Positions 39,387-52,314 of a stretch of 64,000 nucleotides of DNA are shown here, piece after piece (position 1 is the stretch's first letter; every line of letters begins with the position of its first letter). The notes beneath the pieces are model-generated. The model had not been told where the DNA came from. It saw only the letters and a list, made by a program, of their open reading frames with translations, and searched no databases. The position numbers were made by a program, and so were the translations under genes. Source of the stretch: Spirochaetales bacterium (GTDB lineage Bacteria; Spirochaetota; Leptospiria; Leptospirales; Leptonemataceae). Location: contig JABTUL010000001.1 of the NCBI GenBank assembly GCA_015075425.1, positions 1,860,001-1,924,000 on the forward strand, in the 5' to 3' direction.

Positions 39387-40580
39387 TCATCCCAGAAGAT
39401 CTCCTAAAACACCACATATTTTCTTTACTGTTGCCGGTGGAAGCGTGGGATAGAGCGGCAAGGAAAGAATTCGCTTAAAGAGGGCTTCCGCATGGGGGAA
39501 GTCTGCCATCCTGTATTTGTACGTTTTTCGAAAATGCGTGAACCGATACAGGGGGATGAAGTGCAGGCTTGTCGCAATCCCCCGCGTGTATAGCGCTTCC
39601 ACAAGCTCATCGCGATGTAGTTTTGCGCTATCCAGAAGCTCTACTGTGAAGAGGTGCTGAGCCCCTTCCGGGGTGGGTTCGTCAATGATTCGCAGGGGGA
39701 GACCTTGAAGCATCCGCACATACTCGCCGGCCAGCCGGTGACGTTTTTTCTGCATAGCAGGCAGGCGCCGCAACTGAACACGCCCTATTGCTGCCAGTAT
39801 ATCACACATATTGTATTTATAGCCAAATTCCAGAACATCATAGCGCCAGCGCGCCCGCCCATAGGTCTGCCCCAGGATTCCATGCAAGCGCAACCGCCGC
39901 AGCCGATCGGCAGCACCTGCATCGCGTAACGTCAGCATACCTCCTTCACCGGTGGCCAGATTCTTGGTTGCATAAAAGCTGAAAGCTGCAAATTCCGATT
40001 TTGAACCGATCATCTCCTGACCGTGCCTGCCGGTATAGTGTGCTGGCAGAGCATGAGCCGCATCTTCAATAAGTTTCAAACGGTACTCACGACACAGGTC
40101 ACGAAGGCCATCCAGATCGCAGGCTCGCCCGCCCAGATGCACGGCAACCAGAGCGCGCAATCTGCGACCACTTGCCCGGTGTATCCATTCTCCATTTTTA
40201 TTTTTTTTACAAGTATTTTCGATGAAACCCTCTGTCAGCGATGGATCAAGAAGCATGGTCTGCCGATGAACGTCCACAAGGAGCGGCAGGGCTCCTTCAT
40301 AAGTGAAAGCCTCCGCTGTAGCAATGAAGGTGATTGCCGGCACAATGACGGCGTCCCGGGGCCCCAGCATCAAGGCCCGGCTTATCAAGTGCAGAGCGGA
40401 AGTGCAGGAATTTACGGCCAGGGCCTGCGGCGCTCCCGTGAAATGTTTGAACTCTTCCTCAAAGGCACTCGTCTCGGGTCCCGATGTAAGCCAGCCGGAG
40501 CGAATCACCCGGCTCGCAGCTTTGATCTCTTCATCGCCCAGATCAGGCAGTGCATAGGGGAGGCGCTCTTTCTTGTTCAC
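39387..40580 (-). CDS. DegT/DnrJ/EryC1/StrS family sugar aminotransferase
   Basis: 397 residues from GTG at 40580. Family features: LPDLGDEEIKAASRVIRSGWLTSGP, the substrate loop NSCTSALHLI, ALVAVHLGG, IEDAAHALPA, and PLP Lys in SFYATKNLATGEGG. These enzymes add an amino group to keto-sugar nucleotides for surface polysaccharides. In the middle (residues ~119-137) an A-rich stretch encodes NTCKKNKNGEWIHRASGRRL, an insert compared with typical members. The surrounding glycosyltransferases support a role in LPS O-antigen or glycan building. Divergent from the GT4 gene at 40672. Confidence 0.92.
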   Translation of the reverse strand: MNKKERLPYALPDLGDEEIKAASRVIRSGWLTSGPETSAFEEEFKHFTGAPQALAVNSCTSALHLISRALMLGPRDAVIVPAITFIATAEAFTYEGALPLLVDVHRQTMLLDPSLTEGFIENTCKKNKNGEWIHRASGRRLRALVAVHLGGRACDLDGLRDLCREYRLKLIEDAAHALPAHYTGRHGQEMIGSKSEFAAFSFYATKNLATGEGGMLTLRDAGAADRLRRLRLHGILGQTYGRARWRYDVLEFGYKYNMCDILAAIGRVQLRRLPAMQKKRHRLAGEYVRMLQGLPLRIIDEPTPEGAQHLFTVELLDSAKLHRDELVEALYTRGIATSLHFIPLYRFTHFRKTYKYRMADFPHAEALFKRILSLPLYPTLPPATVKKICGVLGDLLG

Positions 40581-40671
40581 GGTCTTAAACAGAGTTTCGA
40601 TGCACCCTGGTCCGGCCTGTAGATTTTTTTAAAAAAGCTTTTAGCGGCCCGGCCGGCCTGAAGGCTGCCCT

Positions 40672-41880
40672 GTGCGAATCCTGTGCCTCACCCAGGTTTT
40701 TCCGCCCGACCCGGCCGCCGTGGGTCAGTATTTTCTCGACCTCATCAAAAGGGCGTGCGGAGAAGGCCACAGCTGCACGGTCATCACATCCAACCGTGGG
40801 TACGAGAACCCGCGAATGAAATTTCCCTCCCGGAGGGAAGAAGGATACCGGGTCATCCGTCTGCCACTGACGTCCCTGGGCAAACGAACCCTGCTGCAAA
40901 GAATGCTTGGCTCCCTTGGCTTTGTTTTTTTTTCTTTTCTGCGGGCCCTCTTTCTGCCCTTTGATGCAATACTGGTCAGTACCTCCCCTCCCTTTGCCGC
41001 TCCCGGTGCCTTGCTTGTTTCCATTCTCAGGCGCCGCCCCTTTTTCTACTGGGTTATGGATATCAATCCCGACCAGGCTGTGGCTCTGGGAATGGCTCGC
41101 CCGGAACAGTGGTCCGTGCGCGTCTGGCAATCGATCAATCGGCTGATTCTAAGGCGGGCCACGCGAGTGATTACCCTTGACCGGTTCATGGCAGAACGCC
41201 TGCGCAATATCTGTCCGGGAGCAAACATTGCTCACAATCCACTATGGCCGCTGGAAGCCATGGCCACGAGTAACCTCCGGCAAACAGAGCAGTTGCGCAA
41301 GGAGCTTGGTCTCGAGCAAAAATTTGTCTTCATGTACAGCGGCAACTGGAACCGGACCGTATCGCTTTTGCCTCTGGTCCAGGCCATGCAGAAAATTCCT
41401 GAGGATATTCATCTACTCCTCATGGGCGACGGCTTCGGTCGTCGTGAAATCGAAGACTTTGTGGAAAAGCAACCTCAGAAAACCGTAACCCTCCTGCCTT
41501 TCGTTTCTCTGGAAAGGCTTCCCTTCTATCTGGATCTGGCCCAGGTCCATCTGGTCCTGCAGAGCCATCGCATGAGCGGAATCCTTCACCCCAGTAAAAC
41601 CTATAATGCCCTGGCTCTTGGCAAACCCGTCCTTTTCATAGGACCGGAGCATAATTTTTTCCGGGACATTCAAAACAGAGTGGACCTGGGCTGGTTTCTT
41701 GAAGAACCGGTGAGCATATCGTTACTTTCTGAGACTCTGCGAAACATTGCTGCAAATCCGGACGATGCCAGCCGTAAGGGAAGAGCCGCTCTCCTCTATT
41801 CCAGGGAACACAGCAGAGAGGAGCTTGCCGGTTCCATGCTTGAACATTTGGGCCTCAAAAACAGAAATGGTGTATCTTAG
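40672..41880 (+). CDS. GT4 glycosyltransferase (WbuB-like)
   Basis: 402 residues from GTG at 40672. The start RILCLTQVFPPDPAAVGQYF and the membrane-associated stretch LPFDAILVSTSPPFAAPGALL match the WbuB/WcaI-like group of GT4 enzymes. The donor-binding half has FMYSGNWNRTVSLLPLV, LLMGDGFGRREIE and LGKPVLFIGPE. These retaining transferases move sugars from nucleotide donors to lipid-linked glycans at the inner membrane. The usual EX7E motif is not clear in this protein (SGILHPSKTYNALALGKPV is the matching region), as in WbuB relatives. Convergent with the next GT4 gene, 11 bp between stops. Confidence 0.88.
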   Translation: MRILCLTQVFPPDPAAVGQYFLDLIKRACGEGHSCTVITSNRGYENPRMKFPSRREEGYRVIRLPLTSLGKRTLLQRMLGSLGFVFFSFLRALFLPFDAILVSTSPPFAAPGALLVSILRRRPFFYWVMDINPDQAVALGMARPEQWSVRVWQSINRLILRRATRVITLDRFMAERLRNICPGANIAHNPLWPLEAMATSNLRQTEQLRKELGLEQKFVFMYSGNWNRTVSLLPLVQAMQKIPEDIHLLLMGDGFGRREIEDFVEKQPQKTVTLLPFVSLERLPFYLDLAQVHLVLQSHRMSGILHPSKTYNALALGKPVLFIGPEHNFFRDIQNRVDLGWFLEEPVSISLLSETLRNIAANPDDASRKGRAALLYSREHSREELAGSMLEHLGLKNRNGVS

Positions 41881-41891
41881 ATAAAAATCAA

Positions 41892-42968
41892 CTATCCGAA
41901 CTCTTTCCGGTAGATTTCTTCATAGAACTGTATTGTTTGTTGAAAGCATCTGTCCCAGCTAAACAGCTCTGCCCGTTTTAAGCCTTTCTGGATCATTTGC
42001 CGGCGAAGCTCGGGATCTTCCAGGCGGCCGATTTGCTGGACGAGCGCTCTTACTTCAATCGGCTCCAGAAAAAGTGCGGCGTCACCGGCGACTTCCGGAA
42101 GGGAGGACGAATTCGCCGCGATAACCGGGCAGCCCGCGCGCATCGCTTCGAGCACAGGAAAGCCGAAACCTTCGTAAGCCGAAGGATAGACAAGGCAAAA
42201 GGCATGGTTATAGAGGAGGTTCAATCGGGCGTTGTCAATCTGTTGTAAATGAATCACCCGCTCCCCGAGCGTTGATAATAGTTTTCTTTCTGATCTTACA
42301 AGCGGACCGCCGCCTACAAAAACCAGCTGAAATTCCCGCGCTTCCCGCAAAGCCCTGATGACTGTGTGAAAGTTCTTGTAATACCTCCTGTCCCCTACGA
42401 ATAGCAAAAACTTCCTCCGGGTGCTTTCCGGCAGCCAGCCTTCTATTAGCGATGCCTTGTCTTCTAATGGAGCAAATTCAGAGCCTATCCCCAGGTGGAT
42501 GACCCGGATACTTTCGGGAGACAGATGCGGGAAGAATGCGAGCAGATCCCTCCTTGTATGCTCTGAAATGCAGATGATTCCAGAGGAATGCTTCAGAGCA
42601 AATCCTTTCTGGCTTCTGTGGAGAAAGCGTGCCGGATTTCTACGATAGTGCTCGTAGGTAAAATCATACACTGTAGTAATATTTGCTACGTTCTTTTGAA
42701 GAGAAACTCTGTAGTAGCTGGAGTGAAACAATGTATTTCCTGACAGGCGGTGGTAAAAGGGAGCGTAGCGCAAAAGGGGCACGGGAACGGTCTCGCGTTT
42801 CAGAGGAATGTCTCCCAGGGCCTTCCGGAAGCGATTGCGATGGTCTGCTTCGTAGCACATCCAGTCTACACCGGATCCACTCATTCTTTTTAGCAATTCA
42901 GACCAGTAGACAGAGATCCCTCCTGCTGACTGCAATGAAAAAATGATATTATCGTATACAATTCGCAT
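41892..42968 (-). CDS. GT4 (group 1) glycosyltransferase
   Basis: 358 residues. It begins RIVYDNIIFSLQSAGGISVYW, the glycine-rich acceptor loop. The carboxyl half shows LFVGDRRYYKNFHTVI, LVFVGGGPL and the EX7E motif as EGFGFPVLEAM (within VYPSAYEGFGFPVLEA), then NSSSLPEVAGDAALFLEP. This is a clear retaining GT4 enzyme of the mannosyltransferase/RfaB type, using GDP- or UDP-sugars. Substrate unknown. Its start faces the next gene divergently over 187 bp. Confidence 0.92.
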   Translation of the reverse strand: MRIVYDNIIFSLQSAGGISVYWSELLKRMSGSGVDWMCYEADHRNRFRKALGDIPLKRETVPVPLLRYAPFYHRLSGNTLFHSSYYRVSLQKNVANITTVYDFTYEHYRRNPARFLHRSQKGFALKHSSGIICISEHTRRDLLAFFPHLSPESIRVIHLGIGSEFAPLEDKASLIEGWLPESTRRKFLLFVGDRRYYKNFHTVIRALREAREFQLVFVGGGPLVRSERKLLSTLGERVIHLQQIDNARLNLLYNHAFCLVYPSAYEGFGFPVLEAMRAGCPVIAANSSSLPEVAGDAALFLEPIEVRALVQQIGRLEDPELRRQMIQKGLKRAELFSWDRCFQQTIQFYEEIYRKEFG

Positions 42969-43155
42969 GCAAAACGGGTACAGCCTGGCCGGAAGGATTC
43001 CTCAAAATGACAGCACCAGGCACAAGCTCAAATTGTTACAGAGTGGCAATCCATTGCCAAAAAATATTCCCCTGAATACGATCAGGATTGCCCGGTAGAG
43101 GCGCCAGGCCACTTTGCCCTGTGGCTCAAGCCCTAACCCGGGGAAGCAAAATCAA
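42969..43155. other. Divergent intergenic region (187 bp)
   Basis: Separates two glycosyltransferase starts. It contains a short inverted repeat TGGCAA-TCCA-TTGCCA (43044-43059) followed by an A-run, and a GGGGAAG site before the plus-strand ATG. No open reading frame or RNA gene is supported. Confidence 0.4.
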
Positions 43156-44196
43156 ATGAATCGGGATTTCCCCTCCGGTCGCATCGCCATCGCCTGGCAT
43201 GGCCTGCCTTTCTATGCCTACCGCTGCGTGGAGAGCATCCTTGAAGAATTCCGGCCATCGCTTCTGGCCACGCCGGGTCCGGCCAGTGGAGCGGCTTCAA
43301 AATACGCCGGATTTCGCGAGATCCGCGGCCCCAATCCCATGGGCTGGGAGGACCTCCAGCTGCCCGTTCCGGAGCTTTTCTTTCAGACCGGCTGGGGCTA
43401 TCCGCTTTTCAATCACCTGTCCAGGCAGGTCAGGAAATCGGGGGGGCGGGTAGTGGCTTTTGTCGACAACAATCGCAAAAACAACCTGCGCCAGCTACTG
43501 GGAGCTTTGTATTACAGAGTTTTTCTGGCAAATCGGTTTGCCGCCGTCTGGGTACCGGGCACATCAGGCCGGGAGTTGATGGAATTTCTGGGAGCTGAGC
43601 GCATCTATACAGGTCTTTACACTGCAGGCCCGGAGTTTACAGCACAGGGTCCTGAAAAGCGGGCATCCAGAATTTTGTATGCCGGACAGTTCATCGAACG
43701 CAAAGCCATCCAACCATTGTGCGCAGCTTTTCTTTCTGCCATGACAGATCCCTGGGAGTTGTGGCTTGTGGGAAGCGGCCCATCAGTACCACTGGAAAGT
43801 AAACATATCCGAGTTCTGCCCTTTCAAGATCCCGGACAGCTCGCGAATCTGATGCGCGAAAGCGCGTGGTTTGTCCTGCCCTCTTACGAAGAACACTGGG
43901 GCGTTGTTGTCCATGAGGCGGCTCTTTGCGGTTGCGCATTGATTTTGCGACGTTCGGTTGGCGCGGCCAGAGACCTTGCCGGTTCTGATAACGCTCTATT
44001 CTTTGAGCGGGATGCAGAATTGCCAGAGGTTCTCTCCCGGGCCATGCAAATCGATCCGGCCACAGTAAGAAAAATGGGCGAAGCCAGCCGCCGGCGGGCC
44101 GGCGCTTTTTCTGTGGATCGCTGGCAGCGCACCTTCCAGGAGATCACCCGGAATTTACTGCCGCGATCCGGCCCGGATTTCATAAACAGTGTATAG
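43156..44196 (+). CDS. GT4-like glycosyltransferase
   Basis: 346 residues from the ATG at 43156, 10 bp after GGGGAAG; a TTG at 43114 is less likely. The acceptor half is unusual (RIAIAWHGLPFYAYRCVESIL). The donor half is clear: ILYAGQFIERKAIQPL, LWLVGSGPS, and FVLPSYEEHWGVVVHEAALCG containing the EX7E pair, followed by RRSVGAARDL. It is therefore a retaining GT4 transferase. Its 3' end overlaps the convergent GT-C-like gene by 42 bp, unusually long for this window. Confidence 0.87.
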   Translation: MNRDFPSGRIAIAWHGLPFYAYRCVESILEEFRPSLLATPGPASGAASKYAGFREIRGPNPMGWEDLQLPVPELFFQTGWGYPLFNHLSRQVRKSGGRVVAFVDNNRKNNLRQLLGALYYRVFLANRFAAVWVPGTSGRELMEFLGAERIYTGLYTAGPEFTAQGPEKRASRILYAGQFIERKAIQPLCAAFLSAMTDPWELWLVGSGPSVPLESKHIRVLPFQDPGQLANLMRESAWFVLPSYEEHWGVVVHEAALCGCALILRRSVGAARDLAGSDNALFFERDAELPEVLSRAMQIDPATVRKMGEASRRRAGAFSVDRWQRTFQEITRNLLPRSGPDFINSV

Positions 44197-45783
44197 GTCT
44201 GCGTTGCGTTCGGCAATCACCCGACTGAGCCGGTAGTGCTCACCCAGAAAATTACGCAGCGCGGCGAAATCGCGGTAGTCAGCAGGTAGCGGGTCATCGC
44301 CCAGCACAAGCCCCCATTCTGTGGTCTGAATTTCACGGGGTGGTGAATGGGCTACTTCATGACTGATCACAATGAGATCCGGTCGCTTTTGAACTGCCTG
44401 CATGAATCGGGTCCGCGCCCCGGCCTGATGAGGCGAAGGTTTTCTTAAAACATAGTCTACCGGATAGGGCGAGAGAAACTCCAGTACTCCCGGCCGGGCG
44501 GCGGACAGGGCTATCGAGGCATGCTCGAGGCTGACCATGGACCGATAATTAGCACTTGCTGACATATCTTTAAGTGTTTCAGGTAAAAGAAACCCAACCG
44601 GTCGCTCCCTGGTTAATAGTCCTGTCCCCCGATAAATGCGCAAACTGCGCTCCTGCCACAATAGAGTCAGTATTGCCAGGAGGCCCGCAACCGCCAGAGA
44701 ACGCATCGAAGAACGGGTCAGCCATACACCCATGAGTTCCGCGAGCATAATGATGCAAGCCAGCCAGGAAATGTACAGATGATACTGGAATCCCCGCAGT
44801 TGCACCAGGTACATCAGAACACCGGCTATAAATAGAAAGAGTGGGGCTGGATGGAACCGGTAACGGAATGCCAGTACGCACCAGACGCAAATGAGTAGCA
44901 GATGAAATAGGCCGAAATGGCCGGTGTCGATTGCATTCAGATAGCCTTCATTCAAAGAGAGCAAAAATCGCGGCGGCCAGAGAGTAAAGAGATGGAAGGC
45001 GAGAAGTACCGGATCTCTTGTTTCCACAAGCTCGAGGTAAACCGACGTCTGTGTCTGCCACCCGGCAAAGTATTCGACCAGCGCACCGTGCCACAGAAGG
45101 GGCAGACCGATTGCCAGAAGGGCAATGATCCCGCCTGCCATGAATGCCGCCACCCTCTGCCAGAGAAAGCCGGAAGATGTCTTACGACTGACAATAAATA
45201 AATGATATAAATTCATAAATAAAAAAAATAATACAACAGGCGGCTTGATGAGAAAGCTGCAAATCTGCAGGGCCCCCGTCCCGGCATACAAAAAGAGCTC
45301 CCAACCCGAGGCCGGTGACTTTTCAAGATGTTGCAGCAGGTAAATTACTCCCAGCAGGAGCGGAAAAAGAATCACCTCACGTTGAAAGGAGCCATAGGGT
45401 GTAGCCTCTACCGGAAACAGAGAAAAAAGGACTACGGAAGAAACGGCTGCATACCGCCCCGCTCCCGCCCGCAAAACAAAAAAAAGCAGACCGGCCGTCC
45501 CGGAAAGCCAGAGCAAATCCAGAATGCGAAATCCCGTATCGTCAAAACCAAAGAGGCACAGACCAAGAGCATGGACGTAGTGGGTAAACGGCAGATTGAT
45601 GGAAACAAAGTCCACCCCAGGAAAACGACCCTTGAGCATCTGGGCGGCTTCAAAGCGTAGTATTACGGCATCGGGTGAAATCGATACCGGCCAGCGCAGG
45701 GTGGTGAGCGCAAAATGCAGATTGCGTAGAAGGAATACTCCGCCCAGAAGGATGAGAAGGGCCCGAAAAAAAATAGCAATCAT
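44155..45783 (-). CDS. Polytopic membrane glycosyltransferase-like protein (GT-C / GT39-like)
   Basis: 542 residues with about 10-12 membrane segments and a soluble carboxyl end (~400-542). The first loop contains SPDAVILRFEAAQMLKGRFPGVDFVSINLP, resembling the acidic loop of GT-C enzymes that use polyprenyl-phosphate sugars on the outer face of the inner membrane, with an early catalytic acidic residue. It lies 2 bp after the GT2-GtrA fusion, whose product would make and flip the lipid-linked donor; this pairing is logical and supports the call. An A/T-rich island at 45187-45232 encodes FLFMNLYHLFIVS. Substrate unknown. Confidence 0.75.
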   Translation of the reverse strand: MIAIFFRALLILLGGVFLLRNLHFALTTLRWPVSISPDAVILRFEAAQMLKGRFPGVDFVSINLPFTHYVHALGLCLFGFDDTGFRILDLLWLSGTAGLLFFVLRAGAGRYAAVSSVVLFSLFPVEATPYGSFQREVILFPLLLGVIYLLQHLEKSPASGWELFLYAGTGALQICSFLIKPPVVLFFLFMNLYHLFIVSRKTSSGFLWQRVAAFMAGGIIALLAIGLPLLWHGALVEYFAGWQTQTSVYLELVETRDPVLLAFHLFTLWPPRFLLSLNEGYLNAIDTGHFGLFHLLLICVWCVLAFRYRFHPAPLFLFIAGVLMYLVQLRGFQYHLYISWLACIIMLAELMGVWLTRSSMRSLAVAGLLAILTLLWQERSLRIYRGTGLLTRERPVGFLLPETLKDMSASANYRSMVSLEHASIALSAARPGVLEFLSPYPVDYVLRKPSPHQAGARTRFMQAVQKRPDLIVISHEVAHSPPREIQTTEWGLVLGDDPLPADYRDFAALRNFLGEHYRLSRVIAERNADLYTVYEIRAGSRQ

Positions 45784-45785
45784 AA

Positions 45786-47357
45786 TTAACGAATCCGAAA
45801 CACCAGCAGCTTGTATCCAAAGTAATTGGTGATGAAACTCACTGCCACAGTGCTTAGCTTGAGCACATTGACCAGCCAGCGTTCATTGCCCGGATTGAGC
45901 CGGGAATTCAAACCGCCAAAAGCAAGCAGGGCCAGGCACAGTGCGACAACACTGATCGAAAGGAATTTCCAGTATTCCCCGCGAGCCCGAAATGTTATAC
46001 CTGAATTAAAAATATAAGAAATAAAATTCGCGAAAAGAAAGCCAATCGCCTGGTAGATCACCTGTCTGCTGGTTTCCCCCATACCAAAAAAATAGATCAG
46101 TCCGTTGTGAATGGCATAATCAATCGCCGTATTGATCACCCCGACAAAAGAGAAACGATAAACATAACCAAAGCGCAACCGGAATAGATCAAGGAGCACA
46201 CCAACGCTGTCAAGTGTGGTCAGGCGGGAACCCTCTTTGTCCTCCCAGCGCACCGGGGTTTCAACAACATTAAACTGCAAGTCCCGGGCTGCCTTCAAAA
46301 CTTCAAAATCATAGCCATAGCGCAGATTCACAAGTTTCCGGAACAGGACTCGTGCAGCCGTGCGGCGGAAAAGCTTGAAACCACATTGTGTATCCTGAAA
46401 GGATAGACCGGTAAAAAGCCGGATCAGCAGGTTTCCTCCACGGGAAATGAAAATCCGCACCGCAGATTGCCGCACGGTGACATTTGATTCCTGTAAGTAT
46501 CGCGATCCGATGGCTACGTCAAAACCTGCATCCAGGGCGCGGCGCAATGATTCCATCTCTTCAATGGCTGTAGAACCGTCAGCGTCGCAGATCAAAATAA
46601 GCTCCCCCGAAGCCTGACGGACTCCTTCCTGGACGGCCCCCCCTTTGCCAAAATTTTTATAGAGAGTAATGATTCGCGAGGCAGCACCAACAGGAATCAA
46701 AGAAGTACCGTCTGTCGAGCCATCGTCAACAATCAGAATTTCAGAGGAGATTTTCTTCTCTGCAAGATATCTCTCTACTTTTTTAAGAAATGGAGGCAAC
46801 CTCTTTTCTTCATTGAAGGCCGGAATCACAACAGAAAGCTCACAGCCAACCTGCGGTTCACCGGCAAAACGCCGGGCAACGAGAACCGTATTCTCCCCCG
46901 TAATAAATTTCACATAGGGATGCAAACGTATCTCCAGCGAATACAACCAGGCAAGAAATCCGTTGAGAATGCCAGGTTTTTTCACATCCGGCTTTACGCC
47001 CAGAAATCGTACGGGCAGACAGAAAAGGCGCACCAGAAAACCCGCCTGCAAGACCAGCTCAACAACCAGACCGAGATGCCGCGCTTCTTCATAAAGCGAC
47101 CGTAAATCCACGCCACGCAAACGATCGATAATCAAAAGGCTGTTCGCAGAAAGGCGATGATAAATTTCCTTTATACTCAGATGATCATCAATGCTGAGAA
47201 AAAAATCCACCGGTCCGTTTTGCTGCTCAAGTCGCCAGAAATCCAGGCCACCACTGTACTGCGGATTATCGCAGTGGAAGCTTTGAGCCGCATAGGGCAG
47301 ATAGCGCGAGGCAATCCGCCGGTACAATTGCTGCCGCCCACTGATCAGCCAGTGCAT
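45786..47357 (-). CDS. Fusion: methyltransferase-like remnant, GT2 (DPM1-like) and GtrA
   Basis: 523 residues. Residues ~1-165 look like the back half of a class I methyltransferase (VDFFLSIDDHLSIKEIYHRL, SLLIIDR) without the SAM-binding glycine loop. Residues ~172-395 are a GT2 dolichol-phosphate-mannose-synthase-like domain: ELSVVIPAFNEE, IVDDGSTDGT, CDADGST (DxD), FQDTQCGFKLFRR. Residues ~398-523 are GtrA with four membrane segments (FSFVGVINTAIDYAIHNGL). The GT2 part should make a polyprenyl-phosphate sugar and GtrA flip it; the next gene encodes a likely user. Starts 8 bp after the PurA-like gene. Confidence 0.88.
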   Translation of the reverse strand: MHWLISGRQQLYRRIASRYLPYAAQSFHCDNPQYSGGLDFWRLEQQNGPVDFFLSIDDHLSIKEIYHRLSANSLLIIDRLRGVDLRSLYEEARHLGLVVELVLQAGFLVRLFCLPVRFLGVKPDVKKPGILNGFLAWLYSLEIRLHPYVKFITGENTVLVARRFAGEPQVGCELSVVIPAFNEEKRLPPFLKKVERYLAEKKISSEILIVDDGSTDGTSLIPVGAASRIITLYKNFGKGGAVQEGVRQASGELILICDADGSTAIEEMESLRRALDAGFDVAIGSRYLQESNVTVRQSAVRIFISRGGNLLIRLFTGLSFQDTQCGFKLFRRTAARVLFRKLVNLRYGYDFEVLKAARDLQFNVVETPVRWEDKEGSRLTTLDSVGVLLDLFRLRFGYVYRFSFVGVINTAIDYAIHNGLIYFFGMGETSRQVIYQAIGFLFANFISYIFNSGITFRARGEYWKFLSISVVALCLALLAFGGLNSRLNPGNERWLVNVLKLSTVAVSFITNYFGYKLLVFRIR

Positions 47358-47365
47358 GCGACAGG

Positions 47366-48745
47366 CTAAGGATTGTCACCTGGGTGTAAAGTGAATGTCA
47401 AGCGTGATGGGACCGCTGCCGGACGCCATCTGACCGGACCGGCCCAGGTTTTCTGTAGAGCTGTCGGACCGGCAGAAAAATACACTACCGGCTTTCCCGT
47501 TTCCTTCTGGAGGTAGTCAGCGAGCCCCGAGGAATCACCTGTTCCTTCATCAAAGACAGGTGCAGGGTGATTTTCCAGAACTGGACGGCACAATTCCAGA
47601 AGCTCTGTCAGGCGCTGCTGCTCAGCAATTGTCCCGGGAAGACGACGGATACGGATCGCCTCGCCTTTCTCATCCAGCTCAAAAAACTCACCGGCATCGG
47701 TAGCCGGACTGTAAAACCGGTAAGCGCGGACCAAAAAGTAATTCTGACCCTGTGCATGATCGATGCAGGTTAAACCCAGGGCGTCCACCTGGACAAAAGA
47801 AAGGGCATAGTGTAGGAGCACCAGGTCCAACCAGCCCCGGCGGACCGGACCCTGCCAGAAATTGGTTCGGTTACAGCGATCCTCGGGGAGCACTATGCGT
47901 TCATCTTCGCCAGGAAAGGGTCCCGGACCGTGACGGGTCCAGATGGCCCGGATAAGGCCGATTCGATAAGCGGGCAATTTGTTGCTTTGCGTGGCATCGG
48001 TGACAGATACATAGGGAAAAAAACCGTGACGCGCATCCAGAAGGGCGCCCTGCGCTCCTTCAAAGAGAACAGGGGGCTCAACATGAACAGGAGCACACTC
48101 AGCTGTTTGTAAAAATTCATCTATTTTATTAAAATAATAGTCAAAAGCCTGCTCATCGCAGAATAGATCCAGCGCTTCTCTCGCCCGCGGATGGTCCACC
48201 CGACCAATGGTTCGGGCTTTTTCACCAAGAAGAGATCGTATTCTGATCAGAAGTTCCCGCCGTCCGGTCGTCTTTAAGTCTGCCAGTCTGATTACGGGCA
48301 GGCCGCCGCGCTCATCCTGCCAGAGTTCACCCACACCGAGCCCGCAACTGCCATGCCGATTACGGCGTGCCAGTTCGCGGAGCTGGCCCAGAGCCTTATG
48401 GTAGGGTGTGACAACAGGACACTGTTCATCAAATCGCAGGCGGCCGGAGAGAGGGACTCCTTTGTCTTCCAGTATCCGGTACTCGTGCAGGGCAGCAAGT
48501 GGTTCGCAGTACACCGTCTCAAGGCTCATGCTCTTCACGCCGGGGACAAAGAGTCCAGAACCCAACTGGGCAAAAACATGTTCACGGCCTCCGGGAGTCA
48601 GCACATGATGGGCGGCCTGTGGTCCGCCATTGAAACGGCATACGGTGGCCTGCGGAAAGAGACGTGAGAAAAAATCGATGGCTGCGCCCTTGCCTTCGTC
48701 GCCAAAGGCCAGGCCAACCACTGCGATGGCGTCAACTTCAGGCAA
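47366..48745 (-). CDS. Divergent adenylosuccinate-synthetase (PurA) paralog
   Basis: 459 residues from TTG at 48745, overlapping the vWA gene by 8 bp. PurA landmarks: AFGDEGKG (residues 13-20, catalytic D16 kept), GGPQAAHHV (42-48; HNAGHT in true PurA, His kept), LFEGAQGALLD (227-237), RHGPGPFP (271-278), RRGW (302-305), and a GTP-site remnant SAGPTALQKTW. Changes: TTGRGIGP becomes SCGLGVGE (133-140); the Asp-binding loop before RRGW is NFWQGPV; the guanine-binding KLD becomes CID (327-329). Probably a GTP- or NTP-using ligase of PurA fold with altered substrates, not the housekeeping enzyme. In line with kinase and vWA genes. Confidence 0.85.
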   Translation of the reverse strand: MPEVDAIAVVGLAFGDEGKGAAIDFFSRLFPQATVCRFNGGPQAAHHVLTPGGREHVFAQLGSGLFVPGVKSMSLETVYCEPLAALHEYRILEDKGVPLSGRLRFDEQCPVVTPYHKALGQLRELARRNRHGSCGLGVGELWQDERGGLPVIRLADLKTTGRRELLIRIRSLLGEKARTIGRVDHPRAREALDLFCDEQAFDYYFNKIDEFLQTAECAPVHVEPPVLFEGAQGALLDARHGFFPYVSVTDATQSNKLPAYRIGLIRAIWTRHGPGPFPGEDERIVLPEDRCNRTNFWQGPVRRGWLDLVLLHYALSFVQVDALGLTCIDHAQGQNYFLVRAYRFYSPATDAGEFFELDEKGEAIRIRRLPGTIAEQQRLTELLELCRPVLENHPAPVFDEGTGDSSGLADYLQKETGKPVVYFSAGPTALQKTWAGPVRWRPAAVPSRLTFTLHPGDNP

Positions 48746-50102
48746 AAGAGGTCAGCGCCCGCTCCACCTGAGAAGTTTCCTGCCGATTGCGACCGAGCCC
48801 TCGCAAAGTATCCAGGTAGCCGGACAGATCGGTTTTTTTTTCTTTAATTGCCAGCACACCGAGAATCACATCCGTTATGGCCGCCGGATCCTCAATCAAC
48901 AGAATGTTACCCGGCCCGAGCACGGATGCCCATTGGTCCTTGATCAATCGATCGTCATAGTTACGCAAAGCGGCTTCTTCCGCCGCGGAAACACGCCTTT
49001 CCTCCGGCCGGTAATCAAATTCTGCAACGGTAAGATCACTGGCATGGCCGGTCTCACCCTTAAGGCTGATCGTATGATCGAAATACTGCTTGTGACCGTT
49101 CACTTCAAGCTCCAGAGTGAACTGCGCCGGTTCGATTTTTTCGTGAAACCGATAATTTTGCACAAAAACCCGGTAATGACCCGCCGGAGCCGTGCCATGA
49201 GCCCAGCGAACATTCTCCACCGGTTTGGTTGATTCCCCCTGCACGTTCATGTCCACATCCAGCCAGCCACCGCAGGCAGATTGTTTATTTCTATAGAATA
49301 TCTCTTCACCGGATGGGCAAATGACATGCAAATCCAGATCATTGCGATTGTTCCAGATCAGGGATGCCCGGATGTCGACGTTTTTGTACTGTCCCCCAGC
49401 AGATTCAACTCTCTGCCGGATTTCAGCAGAAATATCTCCCAGGCGATCCTGCCAGCTTTTTTGCGGATAGATCAAATAGGTATGGTATTTTTTTTGTAAT
49501 TCTGTAAAGATGTCTTCAGAGAGAATATCTTCAGGGACCTCAAAACCACAAACGGCCTGAATCAGATCTTTTCTAACAGTCGGGTAAAAACCTTCATCTC
49601 CAACGAAGAAAAAGTACCCCTTTTTCCCGCGCTTAACACACTCAAGGATGCTATGCCGGGCATAGTAATAGGCAGCAAGTTCATAGCTCTCCTGACCGGT
49701 ACCTCCACCACCCTCTTCAATCCAGAAATTTTCCAGCACACGATCCAGGCGATTGTCCGCTTCAAACTGTCCCACCTGTAGCGGCGCTTTATCGCCTGAA
49801 GCGGCATCACCGATAGCACAAAAACTGATAGCCACTCCTTGAACATAGCCCTGCACCTGTATCTGGCCAATAAACTCCGGTAGTTTTGCATACATAAGCC
49901 TGGTATCATCGCCACGTGACCGGGTAACATCAAGGGCAACTACAAGAGCTGTCTCATTCATGCACTCCCGGATATGACCCCTGGGATCAAGCGTGCCATG
50001 GAGCTTTTGTTTTTCCGCCGGTTTACTACCAAAGGCAAATCCCTGATGACCGGAAGAGCGAGCCTCGTAGGCAATATCCTGACTGTAAAAACCACCGCCC
50101 AT
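48738..50102 (-). CDS. vWA domain protein with YfaP (DUF2135) domain
   Basis: 454 residues after a strong AAGGAG site. vWA domain ~50-220, MIDAS-like DVTRS (D58, T60, S62) after ALVVAL, a Gly-rich loop EEGGGGTGQES carrying the MIDAS Thr, and FFFVGDEGF for the last Asp. Residues ~235-335 form a YfaP/DUF2135 beta sandwich: RASLIWNNRNDLDLHVICPS, VENVRWAHGTAPAGHYRVFV. The last ~100 residues are helical. No signal peptide, so probably cytoplasmic. vWA proteins with atypical kinases occur in TerY-type systems; here the partner kinase is 11 bp upstream. No phosphatase is adjacent. Confidence 0.88.
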   Translation of the reverse strand: MGGGFYSQDIAYEARSSGHQGFAFGSKPAEKQKLHGTLDPRGHIRECMNETALVVALDVTRSRGDDTRLMYAKLPEFIGQIQVQGYVQGVAISFCAIGDAASGDKAPLQVGQFEADNRLDRVLENFWIEEGGGGTGQESYELAAYYYARHSILECVKRGKKGYFFFVGDEGFYPTVRKDLIQAVCGFEVPEDILSEDIFTELQKKYHTYLIYPQKSWQDRLGDISAEIRQRVESAGGQYKNVDIRASLIWNNRNDLDLHVICPSGEEIFYRNKQSACGGWLDVDMNVQGESTKPVENVRWAHGTAPAGHYRVFVQNYRFHEKIEPAQFTLELEVNGHKQYFDHTISLKGETGHASDLTVAEFDYRPEERRVSAAEEAALRNYDDRLIKDQWASVLGPGNILLIEDPAAITDVILGVLAIKEKKTDLSGYLDTLRGLGRNRQETSQVERALTSFA

Positions 50103-50113
50103 GTTCTTCTCCT

Positions 50114-51151
50114 TTACATACGAAATTCTATAAATTCATGAGGACCGTACATTTCCGCACGAAGCAGATCCAGTCGATTGTACATCTCCCAGGCGTCCGC
50201 AGGCCGGCCGGCCACTGTGGGAAGGGTAAAAAGTCGGAGTAACCGCACAAGCCTTTCATCCAGACCCTCAGGCATACGCCCGCTCGCCGGATCTCCACCC
50301 AAAACATAGAGCATGCATTGCCCGATCGAATACATATCAGAGGATGGCAGGGGATTGGCCCGGGCCGTAACTTCAGGGGCCGTGTAAGGACGATTCTCAA
50401 TGCGAAACGTTTCCCGCGTGCGCGCCGGGTTATCAATAGCATAGCTCCAGTCAATGAGCCAGACATTGTGATCGGCCGGCCGGACCAGAATGTGCGACGG
50501 CTCAATATTGCCGTGAAGGATTCCCTGGCTGTGGGCATGACCTATAACGGCAAGAATCCGCCGCCAGAGCCAGATCACATGACGTTCGGGAATTCCCTGC
50601 GGATAGCGCTTCCGGATCTCTTCGAGGTCAAATCCGGCAATGGATTCAAACACATTCACAGCCAGGCCATCCCGGGTCAAAAAATGCTCCACAAGATGCG
50701 GCAGTTGTTTGCGGAACCGTTCACCGGAATCCCACAGACGGGTAAGGATTCTGGACTCCCGACTCAGCCAATCATTGCTGGAGCGATTTACGGCCTGTTT
50801 GAAAAATACTTTTTCTCCCGTGGCTGTTGTCGCCGCATAGAGGGCAACTCTTTGATTGGCTCCCAGCAATTCTCCCAGCCGGTAGCGCTCCTGCTGCGGT
50901 TGCTGCGGCCTATTTTTTTGACTGCTTCGGGAAACTCCCTCAGCTGCGGGAAGGGGCTTTTTGCTTTTTGAACCCAAAAATAACGATTTGAGAAATCGGT
51001 AAATGTCTTCCGCCAGGCGCTGACCTATACTGCGCAGGATAAAGAGCGCTACGAGGCCAAGAAGGCTTACCCCATAGACAACATAGGGATGAGAAAACAG
51101 CTCTGCAGCCCCTTCAAAGAGAGCGCCGCCCAGTTCAAATATGAATTCCAA
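50114..51151 (-). CDS. Membrane-anchored atypical Ser/Thr kinase-like protein
   Basis: 345 residues from TTG at 51151 (AGGA 6 nt before). One membrane segment near the start (HPYVVYGVSLLGLVALFIL, ~22-40), a basic linker rich in Pro/Gln (~60-88), then a kinase domain. Beta-3 Lys (VFFKQA) and alpha-C Glu (SRESRIL) are kept. The catalytic loop is HGNIEPSHIL in place of HRDLKPxNIL, losing the base Asp, Lys and Asn; the metal Asp is kept in LIDWSYA. YTAPEV and SSDMYSIGQ are the APE and helix F. Similar HGxxxPxHVL loops occur in kinases of TerY-type vWA systems. Active or pseudokinase is open. Confidence 0.85.
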   Translation of the reverse strand: MEFIFELGGALFEGAAELFSHPYVVYGVSLLGLVALFILRSIGQRLAEDIYRFLKSLFLGSKSKKPLPAAEGVSRSSQKNRPQQPQQERYRLGELLGANQRVALYAATTATGEKVFFKQAVNRSSNDWLSRESRILTRLWDSGERFRKQLPHLVEHFLTRDGLAVNVFESIAGFDLEEIRKRYPQGIPERHVIWLWRRILAVIGHAHSQGILHGNIEPSHILVRPADHNVWLIDWSYAIDNPARTRETFRIENRPYTAPEVTARANPLPSSDMYSIGQCMLYVLGGDPASGRMPEGLDERLVRLLRLFTLPTVAGRPADAWEMYNRLDLLRAEMYGPHEFIEFRM

Positions 51152-51159
51152 ACCTTTTC

Positions 51160-52314
51160 CTAAAAATCAAATCGAAGTCCGGCGCTGGCCCCAAACGTTC
51201 CGCGTTCTGTCTTCACAGCTTCCAGCGAAATCTTGAGTGAATCCAGATTGATTTCAAAACCCACCAGACCGTAAATCGTTTTGTACGGTGGCCGTCCCCT
51301 CCCGGTTACCGCGATGGTCAGGAAGGCATCCGGCAACGATTGGCCAAATAACTTCTGGTATTCTTCCTCACTCAAGTTCTTGATGTATTCAGCATAGTCA
51401 GGATTGGAAAGGAGCGCATTGACATTGGTATCAGCGTAGACTCTGCCGCTGCGCGCCAACAAAAAATCGGCTTTCCCTTCATTTACGGAACCACCGGCGC
51501 CCACCGTCAGGTTGAATAAATACAGCAACTGAATCCCGGTGCGAAACTCCAGCTTGGTACTGCGCATACGCACATCATAATTGATGAGGTTGCTCCCATC
51601 CCAGATCAAGTTGACTCCGTTTTCATTGGCCAGATTCAGTTTGGCCGGTTTGGCCACATAATTGATTTGCTGTAAAGAAAAGTGATGACCGACCCCCACA
51701 GAAGCGCCGCGAAAACGAAGGAAAGGTCCCCAGAGCACTTCATTGCCTTCTACCAGATGGTAGCGTAGCTCGGCTCCACGCGAAAAGGAACTGGCGTCGA
51801 TCTTCCCCTGCACTTTTTCCCCGGATTCGCTTTCTGAAAGTTCTGCCCCGACAATGTACAGATCAAAACGAGCCGGAGAAAGAAACGATACGGATCGACC
51901 GCTGTATGGAGCATAGTCGGCTCCGGCCAGCCAGCCCAGATTGATCCCGATGAAGTAGCGCGGGTTGATGGCCACACCCAGAGCAGACAGGTCCTGCAGC
52001 GTGGTCACGCCAGGCATGTATACATTGACCTTCTCTTCCGGTACGTATCCGGCTCCGAGGTACGCTCCAAAGGTAATCCGATGCAGATTGATGGTGCCAA
52101 TAGGTGGCCCCATCAAATTTGCCAGTGCCGCTGCTTCAGCCATATCCTCAAAAACCCGATCCGCGTACTGGCTCTTGAAATGGTAGTAGAACTCTCCCAG
52201 TTGTGCGTCGGTGAAAGGCAGTTCGGAACAGCCCGCCCCATCACAGCGAATCTGAGCAGCCAGGGGTGTAAGCACCGCGCCCGATAGCAGAAGCACAAAG
52301 ATAAATCGAAACAA
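51160..52314 (-). CDS. Exported outer-membrane beta-barrel-like protein
   Basis: 384 residues from TTG at 52314 after AGGGGG. Signal peptide FRFIFVLLLSGAVLTPLAAQ, then a Cys pair (RCDGAGC). Strand-rich mature region with barrel-like repeats (FGAYLGAGYVP, FIGINLGWLAGADY, LLYLFNLTVGAGGSV, YGLVGFEINLDSLKISLEAV) and the end FGASAGLRFDF, with a terminal Phe typical for outer-membrane insertion. It resembles Lsa36-type leptospiral surface proteins in layout, but I cannot confirm it. The kinase gene starts 8 bp after its stop, so it may lead the kinase/vWA/PurA-like run. Confidence 0.75.
   Translation of the reverse strand: MFRFIFVLLLSGAVLTPLAAQIRCDGAGCSELPFTDAQLGEFYYHFKSQYADRVFEDMAEAAALANLMGPPIGTINLHRITFGAYLGAGYVPEEKVNVYMPGVTTLQDLSALGVAINPRYFIGINLGWLAGADYAPYSGRSVSFLSPARFDLYIVGAELSESESGEKVQGKIDASSFSRGAELRYHLVEGNEVLWGPFLRFRGASVGVGHHFSLQQINYVAKPAKLNLANENGVNLIWDGSNLINYDVRMRSTKLEFRTGIQLLYLFNLTVGAGGSVNEGKADFLLARSGRVYADTNVNALLSNPDYAEYIKNLSEEEYQKLFGQSLPDAFLTIAVTGRGRPPYKTIYGLVGFEINLDSLKISLEAVKTERGTFGASAGLRFDF

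Follow-up and report, generated by a model that had tools for sequence, protein, structure and literature searches.

Two described kinds of system come closest to the locus reported here. TerY-P triads consist of a TerY-like vWA protein, a PP2C protein, and a Ser/Thr kinase with a zinc ribbon (PMC11090510). PurZ and PurZ0 from Z-genome phages are paralogs of adenylosuccinate synthase (PurA) and are defined by a Ser (or Gly) at the position of Asp13 (PMC12884076). A 2026 survey collected 481 phage homologues of PurA, of which 147 are PurZ and about four more group with canonical PurA; by these numbers, about 330 phage homologues are neither (PMC12884076). The locus discussed here lies in a 64,000-nucleotide stretch of a leptospire genome (the window; C1:1860001-1924000 of 4.13 Mb in four contigs), and encodes a kinase-like, a vWA, and a PurA-like protein. 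Like a TerY-P triad, it is a small operon that pairs a kinase fold with a vWA protein, but no PP2C stands beside the window copy and the third place is held by the paralog of a metabolic enzyme. Like PurZ, this paralog is phage-borne and has changed substrate sites, but it keeps Asp13, forms a clade of its own, also occurs in bacterial genomes, and is accompanied by a vWA protein.

A first-pass annotation of the window had described a cluster of four minus-strand genes encoding an exported barrel-like protein, a membrane-anchored kinase, a vWA protein with a YfaP (DUF2135) domain, and a diverged PurA paralog. The four open reading frames are indeed present (51160-52314, 50114-51151, 48738-50102, and 47366-48745), where the first two intervals measure 8 bp and 11 bp and the last two genes overlap by 8 bp. 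The last three have the following features:

50114-51151, minus strand: kinase-fold protein, module gene 1, 345 aa, TTG start (PF00069, Pkinase, 1.5e-12)
50492-50515, minus strand: atypical catalytic loop HGNIEPSH, with Asn in place of the HRD Asp (family alignment and window protein sequence)
48738-50102, minus strand: vWA protein, module gene 2, 454 aa, no signal peptide, with DVTRS resembling a metal-ion-dependent adhesion site (MIDAS) (AlphaFold2/Foldseek match to integrin beta-I, family alignments)
49011-49439, minus strand: beta-rich domain, inserted in a late part of the vWA fold (phrog_1735, 2.8e-32)
47366-48745, minus strand: PurA-like protein, module gene 3, 459 aa, TTG start, overlapping gene 2 by 8 bp (PF00709, 1.1e-48)
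48686-48703, minus strand: P-loop GDEGKG with the equivalent of catalytic Asp13 and Lys16 (alignment)
47927-47938, minus strand: family signature TRHG (canonical TRVG; His replaces Val in 100% of family members; alignment)
47840-47857, minus strand: WQGPVR, a rewritten aspartate loop with Thr301 changed to Gln and Arg303 deleted in all aligned members (alignment)

The kinase-like, vWA, and PurA-like genes, without the barrel gene, are a conserved three-gene module. A scan of a genome collection with a vWA alignment found at least 539 relatives, of which we examined the best 80 loci; all of these belong to Actinomycetota by their record titles, with a conflicting family label in the tree for one of them (L062, Rhodococcus). 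The first viral scan with vWA as bait gave 311 relatives, and again the best 80 loci were examined; together with two further viral scans, this gave 162 viral loci that are distinct at 95% identity, and a viral scan with a single spirochaete vWA sequence (f7) as the query was unproductive. In the first scans, a PurA-like gene is located on the vWA strand at 79 of the best 80 bacterial and 79 of the best 80 viral loci. It mostly adjoins the vWA gene (median distance 1 bp for bacteria, 196 bp for viruses). Most loci have the kinase-like gene upstream, and the order kinase–vWA–PurA is found in 126 of these 160. The 162 distinct viral loci comprise 156 with a PurA-like gene, four with a pyruvate-kinase-like gene, and two others. 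The third gene is PurA-like in nearly all loci; for the window, the first-pass annotation had seen this enzyme in the place of PP2C. It had also named a neighborhood survey as its test, and the three genes are neighbors in other genomes. Their conserved order in unrelated genomes and phages rules out chance, and the linkage across bacterial and viral loci led us to reject a fortuitous operon of one genome. Moreover, the pairwise distances of the three proteins correlate (r = 0.81, 0.88, and 0.83; shuffle maxima 0.21-0.28), which indicates that they travel together.

Among 296 genomes of the spirochaete phylum, module members occur in seven from the window's own order and in two from another family. 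This rarity suggests horizontal spread. The relatives G003, G004, and G005 retain the order kinase–vWA–PurA (in G005 spanning a contig break); G007 has adjacent vWA and PurA genes and yielded no clear relative of the kinase. The carriers beyond these few spirochaetes include Actinomycetota, megaplasmids of Agrobacterium, Rhodococcus, and Variovorax, mycobacteriophages of the genus Bixzunavirus, and phages of Vibrio and Rhizobium. Plasmid copies were found in Tsukamurella, Rhodococcus, Agrobacterium vitis, Acetobacter, Variovorax, Methylorubrum extorquens AM1, and Rhizobium leguminosarum. The 225 phage records that we found include 189 Mycobacterium phages. In the mycobacteriophage Breeniome, the module corresponds to gp261–gp264, Vibrio phage Va1 carries a copy with no kinase seen beside it, and Rhizobium phage RHph_TM30 contains the vWA and PurA-like genes. 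The search for additional genes that accompany the module in phages yielded only genes shared by local groups of related phages, none of them common to different phage groups.

In PurA-type chemistry, guanosine triphosphate (GTP) phosphorylates a carbonyl oxygen and an amine then displaces the phosphate. The description of gene 3 as a diverged PurA paralog proved sound. The AlphaFold2 model of this protein (predicted local distance difference test score, pLDDT, 92) shows a complete PurA fold, and Foldseek returned Escherichia coli PurA as its best PDB match (4e-31) with a much weaker match to PurZ. At 139.8 bits, the protein falls far under the adenylosuccinate-synthase equivalog cut-offs (402 bits). 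The absence of a canonical PurA would have counted against the earlier annotation; a canonical purA is encoded at C1:831175-832419 (5.5e-175), about 1.07 Mb from the PurA-like gene. A comparison of 169 family members with 15 canonical sequences, from E. coli and genomes of the window's own family, revealed which residues have changed (numbered as in E. coli, Met not counted). No variation occurs at Asp13, Lys16, His41, or Gln224 (100%), and Asp333 is nearly invariant (99%); the Asp13/His41 catalytic pair is thus present, as are the P-loop and the whole fold. By contrast, several other positions of PurA are lost or replaced: Asn38 by Gln (98%), Thr129 by Cys or Val, Thr300 by an aromatic residue, Thr301 by Gln (98%), and Lys331 by His or Cys, while Arg143 is not conserved and Arg303 is deleted (100%). 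In PurA, Thr129, Arg143, and Thr301 are contacts to inosine monophosphate (IMP) or aspartate, and Lys331 is part of the guanine-recognition motif. Arg303 of PurA touches the IMP ribose and free aspartate (PMC8342488). The family keeps the GTP-binding and catalytic residues, and the canonical IMP/aspartate contacts Thr129, Arg143, Thr301, and Arg303 are not kept. The sequence signatures of the family are HGSCG, TRHG, and WQG.

This pattern bears on two simpler explanations for gene 3. An ordinary second adenylosuccinate synthase that by chance sits in a conserved operon would be compatible with the intact fold and catalytic residues, but it is scarcely credible next to a coexisting canonical purA and with IMP/aspartate contacts that are consistently replaced across 169 relatives. 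Alternatively, the protein could act as PurZ does and supply an altered base to phage DNA. PurZ itself provides a precedent for this function (PMC8342488), large phages are among the many carriers, and the PHROGs database names the family "2-aminooxy adenylosuccinate synthetase". However, Asp13 occurs in 100% of the 169 sequences where PurZ contains Ser, and the PurA-like family forms a single clade (SH-like approximate likelihood-ratio test, SH-aLRT, 100, a quick-search support value) separate from canonical PurA and from the two PurZ sequences included. These two observations led us to reject the identification of the protein as PurZ. Given also that many copies are bacterial and that no additional gene accompanies the module from one phage group to another, we see only a slim chance for a modified DNA precursor.

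The kinase-like protein of the window matches the earlier description of a membrane-anchored kinase with an atypical loop: it carries the loop HGNIEPSH, and a membrane helix is predicted for residues 24-42, where other members have a J domain. Of the 141 family members aligned, 139 lack the HRD Asp (the window protein has Asn) and 97 lack the DFG Asp. Since the catalytic Asp is lacking in 139 of 141, the protein is probably a pseudokinase. The HPD motif, which is characteristic of J domains, has a conservation of 94–97% among the 141 members, and 16 of 34 scanned members match the DnaJ model of Pfam (best 2.2e-25); in the same 34 proteins, no C-terminal domain besides the kinase found a match. 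A strong membrane helix replaces the J domain in the window, G003, G004, and G005 kinases, and the G010 kinase has neither helix nor HPD motif.

Could the kinase-fold protein nevertheless be active? The first-pass annotation had proposed that the kinase/vWA pair controls the enzyme. A phosphorylation switch of the kind suggested for TerY-P triads, in which an active kinase and the vWA protein turn the PurA-like enzyme on and off, would agree with the beta3 Lys and DFG-like Asp retained in the window kinase and with a canonical HRD/DFG kinase in a divergent pyruvate-kinase variant of the module (see below). The loss of the HRD and DFG Asp residues in most relatives and the missing PP2C partner beside the window copy make such a switch improbable. 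The comparison with TerY systems holds only loosely. In contrast to the kinases of TerY-P triads, the 34 module kinases scanned show no match to a C-terminal zinc ribbon or OB fold; the catalytic Asp is missing from the module kinase, and a J domain is its usual companion. In addition, the module vWA family is barely matched by Pfam. On the grounds of PP2C and zinc ribbon we rejected membership in this group, which remains the nearest system in logic.

The window vWA protein matched none of the Pfam or TerY models, a single weak match to VWA_2 was found among 43 family members, and a PDB sequence search with the vWA profile was unproductive. The assignment of the first-pass annotation was nonetheless correct for the fold: an AlphaFold2 model retrieved integrin beta-I/vWA domains in Foldseek (E 2e-7, probability 1.00), and the DxTxS motif is kept across the family alignments. 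The YfaP part of that assignment failed, as a search of the window's genome with PF09906 (YfaP/DUF2135) returned nothing even at E = 1, and we dropped this label for the insert. Among the vWA proteins aligned, only the leptospire versions contain the beta-rich insert; it is absent in G007, G028, and the other aligned members. The inserted segment (49011-49439) also occurs in many unrelated phage proteins, from 405 phage records. These include Salmonella, Klebsiella, Escherichia, and Caulobacter phages, Brevibacillus phage Sundance, and others.

A few divergent loci have a third gene of a different kind. The two spirochaetes from another family, G030 and G092, encode a protein after vWA that is not PurA-like; in G030 this is a pyruvate-kinase-barrel protein (7.6e-18), and the G092 protein resembles one by sequence. 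Four viral contigs (L322, L325, L332, and L382) contain a kinase–vWA pair followed by a pyruvate-kinase-like gene; the three of them that were scanned all match the Pfam barrel model, two above its cut-off. Because a pyruvate-kinase-like barrel replaces the PurA-like protein in these loci, the arrangement suggests that kinase and vWA form a chassis on which the enzyme can be exchanged.

How might these three proteins work together? The reading that we find on balance probable is a three-protein module composed of a PurA-like GTP-dependent ligase with altered specificity, a pseudokinase as sensor or scaffold, and a vWA adaptor. The PurA-like protein would be a working, neofunctionalized enzyme that retains PurA-type chemistry and the use of GTP, with substrates other than IMP and aspartate bound in the canonical manner. 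A modified nucleotide or an amino-acid conjugate, as the first-pass annotation envisaged, is a plausible, if hypothetical, product. The kinase-fold protein would no longer phosphorylate proteins and would instead sense nucleotides or serve as a scaffold. In most members its J domain may recruit Hsp70 (DnaK), and in the window leptospire the membrane helix would provide an anchor instead. The vWA protein could act as a metal-dependent adaptor that links pseudokinase and PurA-like enzyme in a complex.

Several observations weigh against parts of this proposal. The DFG Asp is retained in 44 of the 141 kinases, including the window protein, and in the spirochaete pyruvate-kinase variant (G030; L237:5382-8029), where a pyruvate-kinase-barrel paralog follows the kinase–vWA pair, the HRD and DFG motifs of the kinase are normal. 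Judged by these motifs, some relatives of the kinase may be active. The J-domain motif is missing in the window kinase and its closest relatives, and in G010 the vWA and PurA genes are adjacent but about 22 kb separate them from the kinase gene, which is on the same strand. With Lys331 lost, the nucleotide donor of the PurA-like enzyme may not be GTP, and the invariant catalytic dyad could accommodate IMP bound in another way.

The biological role of the proposed ligase module can only be guessed; one guess is a signal or modification that derives from a nucleotide and is used in phage-host competition or under stress. Most actinobacterial and some plasmid copies adjoin a NUDIX gene (L054:6274-6921; L055:2210-2935; most of L060-L139), in many cases one with an NrtR-type winged helix, which hints at control by a ligand similar to ADP-ribose or a sugar nucleotide. 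This regulator, the patchy occurrence via plasmids and large phages, and weak matches of the kinase part to defence kinases in PADLOC would also suit a conflict effector that, once it senses infection, produces a nucleotide with toxic or signalling action or depletes GTP or purines, be it in bacterial defence, phage superinfection exclusion, or counter-defence. On the other hand, the module has no conserved companion gene for a nuclease, a membrane pore, or a known defence function, the vWA and PurA-like proteins found no match in a PADLOC search, and the carriers include many Nocardia and Amycolatopsis species, mostly on large contigs. We consider a conflict effector unlikely, although less so than a phosphorylation switch.

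The module as a ligase with its pseudokinase and vWA partners may represent a wider class. It is possible, though a shade short of probable in our estimate, that phages and bacteria share an undescribed class of systems in which a J-domain/pseudokinase–vWA chassis serves a swappable neofunctionalized enzyme, usually PurA-like and sometimes pyruvate-kinase-like; that the PurA-like version makes a nucleotide conjugate or modifies a nucleobase; and that this class explains many phage PurA homologues outside PurA and PurZ. Many of the about 330 remaining homologues would then belong to the PurA-like family, and the module offers a testable answer for them. Automatic annotation calls gene 3 "adenylosuccinate synthase" and the vWA protein hypothetical, which hides the module in hundreds of genomes. 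In Bixzunavirus, the same module (gp261-gp264) is annotated gene by gene as "ser/thr kinase", hypothetical, hypothetical, and "PurA-like adenylosuccinate synthetase"; the vWA protein went unrecognized, and the J-domain motif is present, unlike in the window kinase. The phage genes have been listed singly (PMC9476963). We found no published description of the genes as a unit in a search conducted mostly without subscription literature, so that an earlier description is possible. Phages isolated on Mycobacterium smegmatis mc2 155, which is widely used as a laboratory host, carry the module, and its product and purpose are therefore directly testable.

The same-strand run in the window is longer than four genes. 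The neighbors of the module are:

51160-52314, minus strand: exported surface protein of the Lsa36 family, hydrophobic signal at the N terminus, judged to be outside the module (NF047512, 2.9e-66)
45786-47357, minus strand: GT2 + GtrA protein, with no conserved link to the module (PF00535, 2.4e-27; PF04138, 1.4e-11)
44155-45783, minus strand: PMT_2-family membrane protein, with no conserved link to the module (PF13231, 1.1e-6)

The first of these is the barrel-like protein of the earlier four-gene cluster. Its assignment to the Lsa36 family is well above the threshold (223.9 bits; cut-off 90). Because no gene of this type adjoins the module copies in relatives (loci L037-L040; genomes G003, G004, G005, G010, and G007), we regard it as a neighbor only; of the proposed cluster, the kinase-like, vWA, and PurA-like genes are linked far beyond this genome and the barrel gene is not a member. 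The GT2 + GtrA gene begins 8 bp past the PurA-like gene and the PMT_2 gene follows 2 bp further; both were rejected as module members since they are not conserved in relatives. The GT2 + GtrA protein in this run (44155-47357) is extended by a long additional region at its N terminus. Further along (39387-44196), other glycosyltransferases and a DegT aminotransferase are encoded.

Other copies of the module have neighbors of their own. In G028 (L043:1-5605), the J-domain kinase and the vWA protein are split by an uncharacterized 521-aa protein and an apparent PIN-type toxin gene, and the contig stops short of any PurA-like gene. The Agrobacterium vitis module is directly followed by an AAA ATPase–DUF5682–DUF4132 run (L055:6471-11035). 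Finally, RHph_TM30 encodes phosphoribosyltransferase-like and nicotinamide mononucleotide (NMN) adenylyltransferase/NUDIX genes a few genes upstream (L059:1-1239), which makes a link to NAD metabolism possible.

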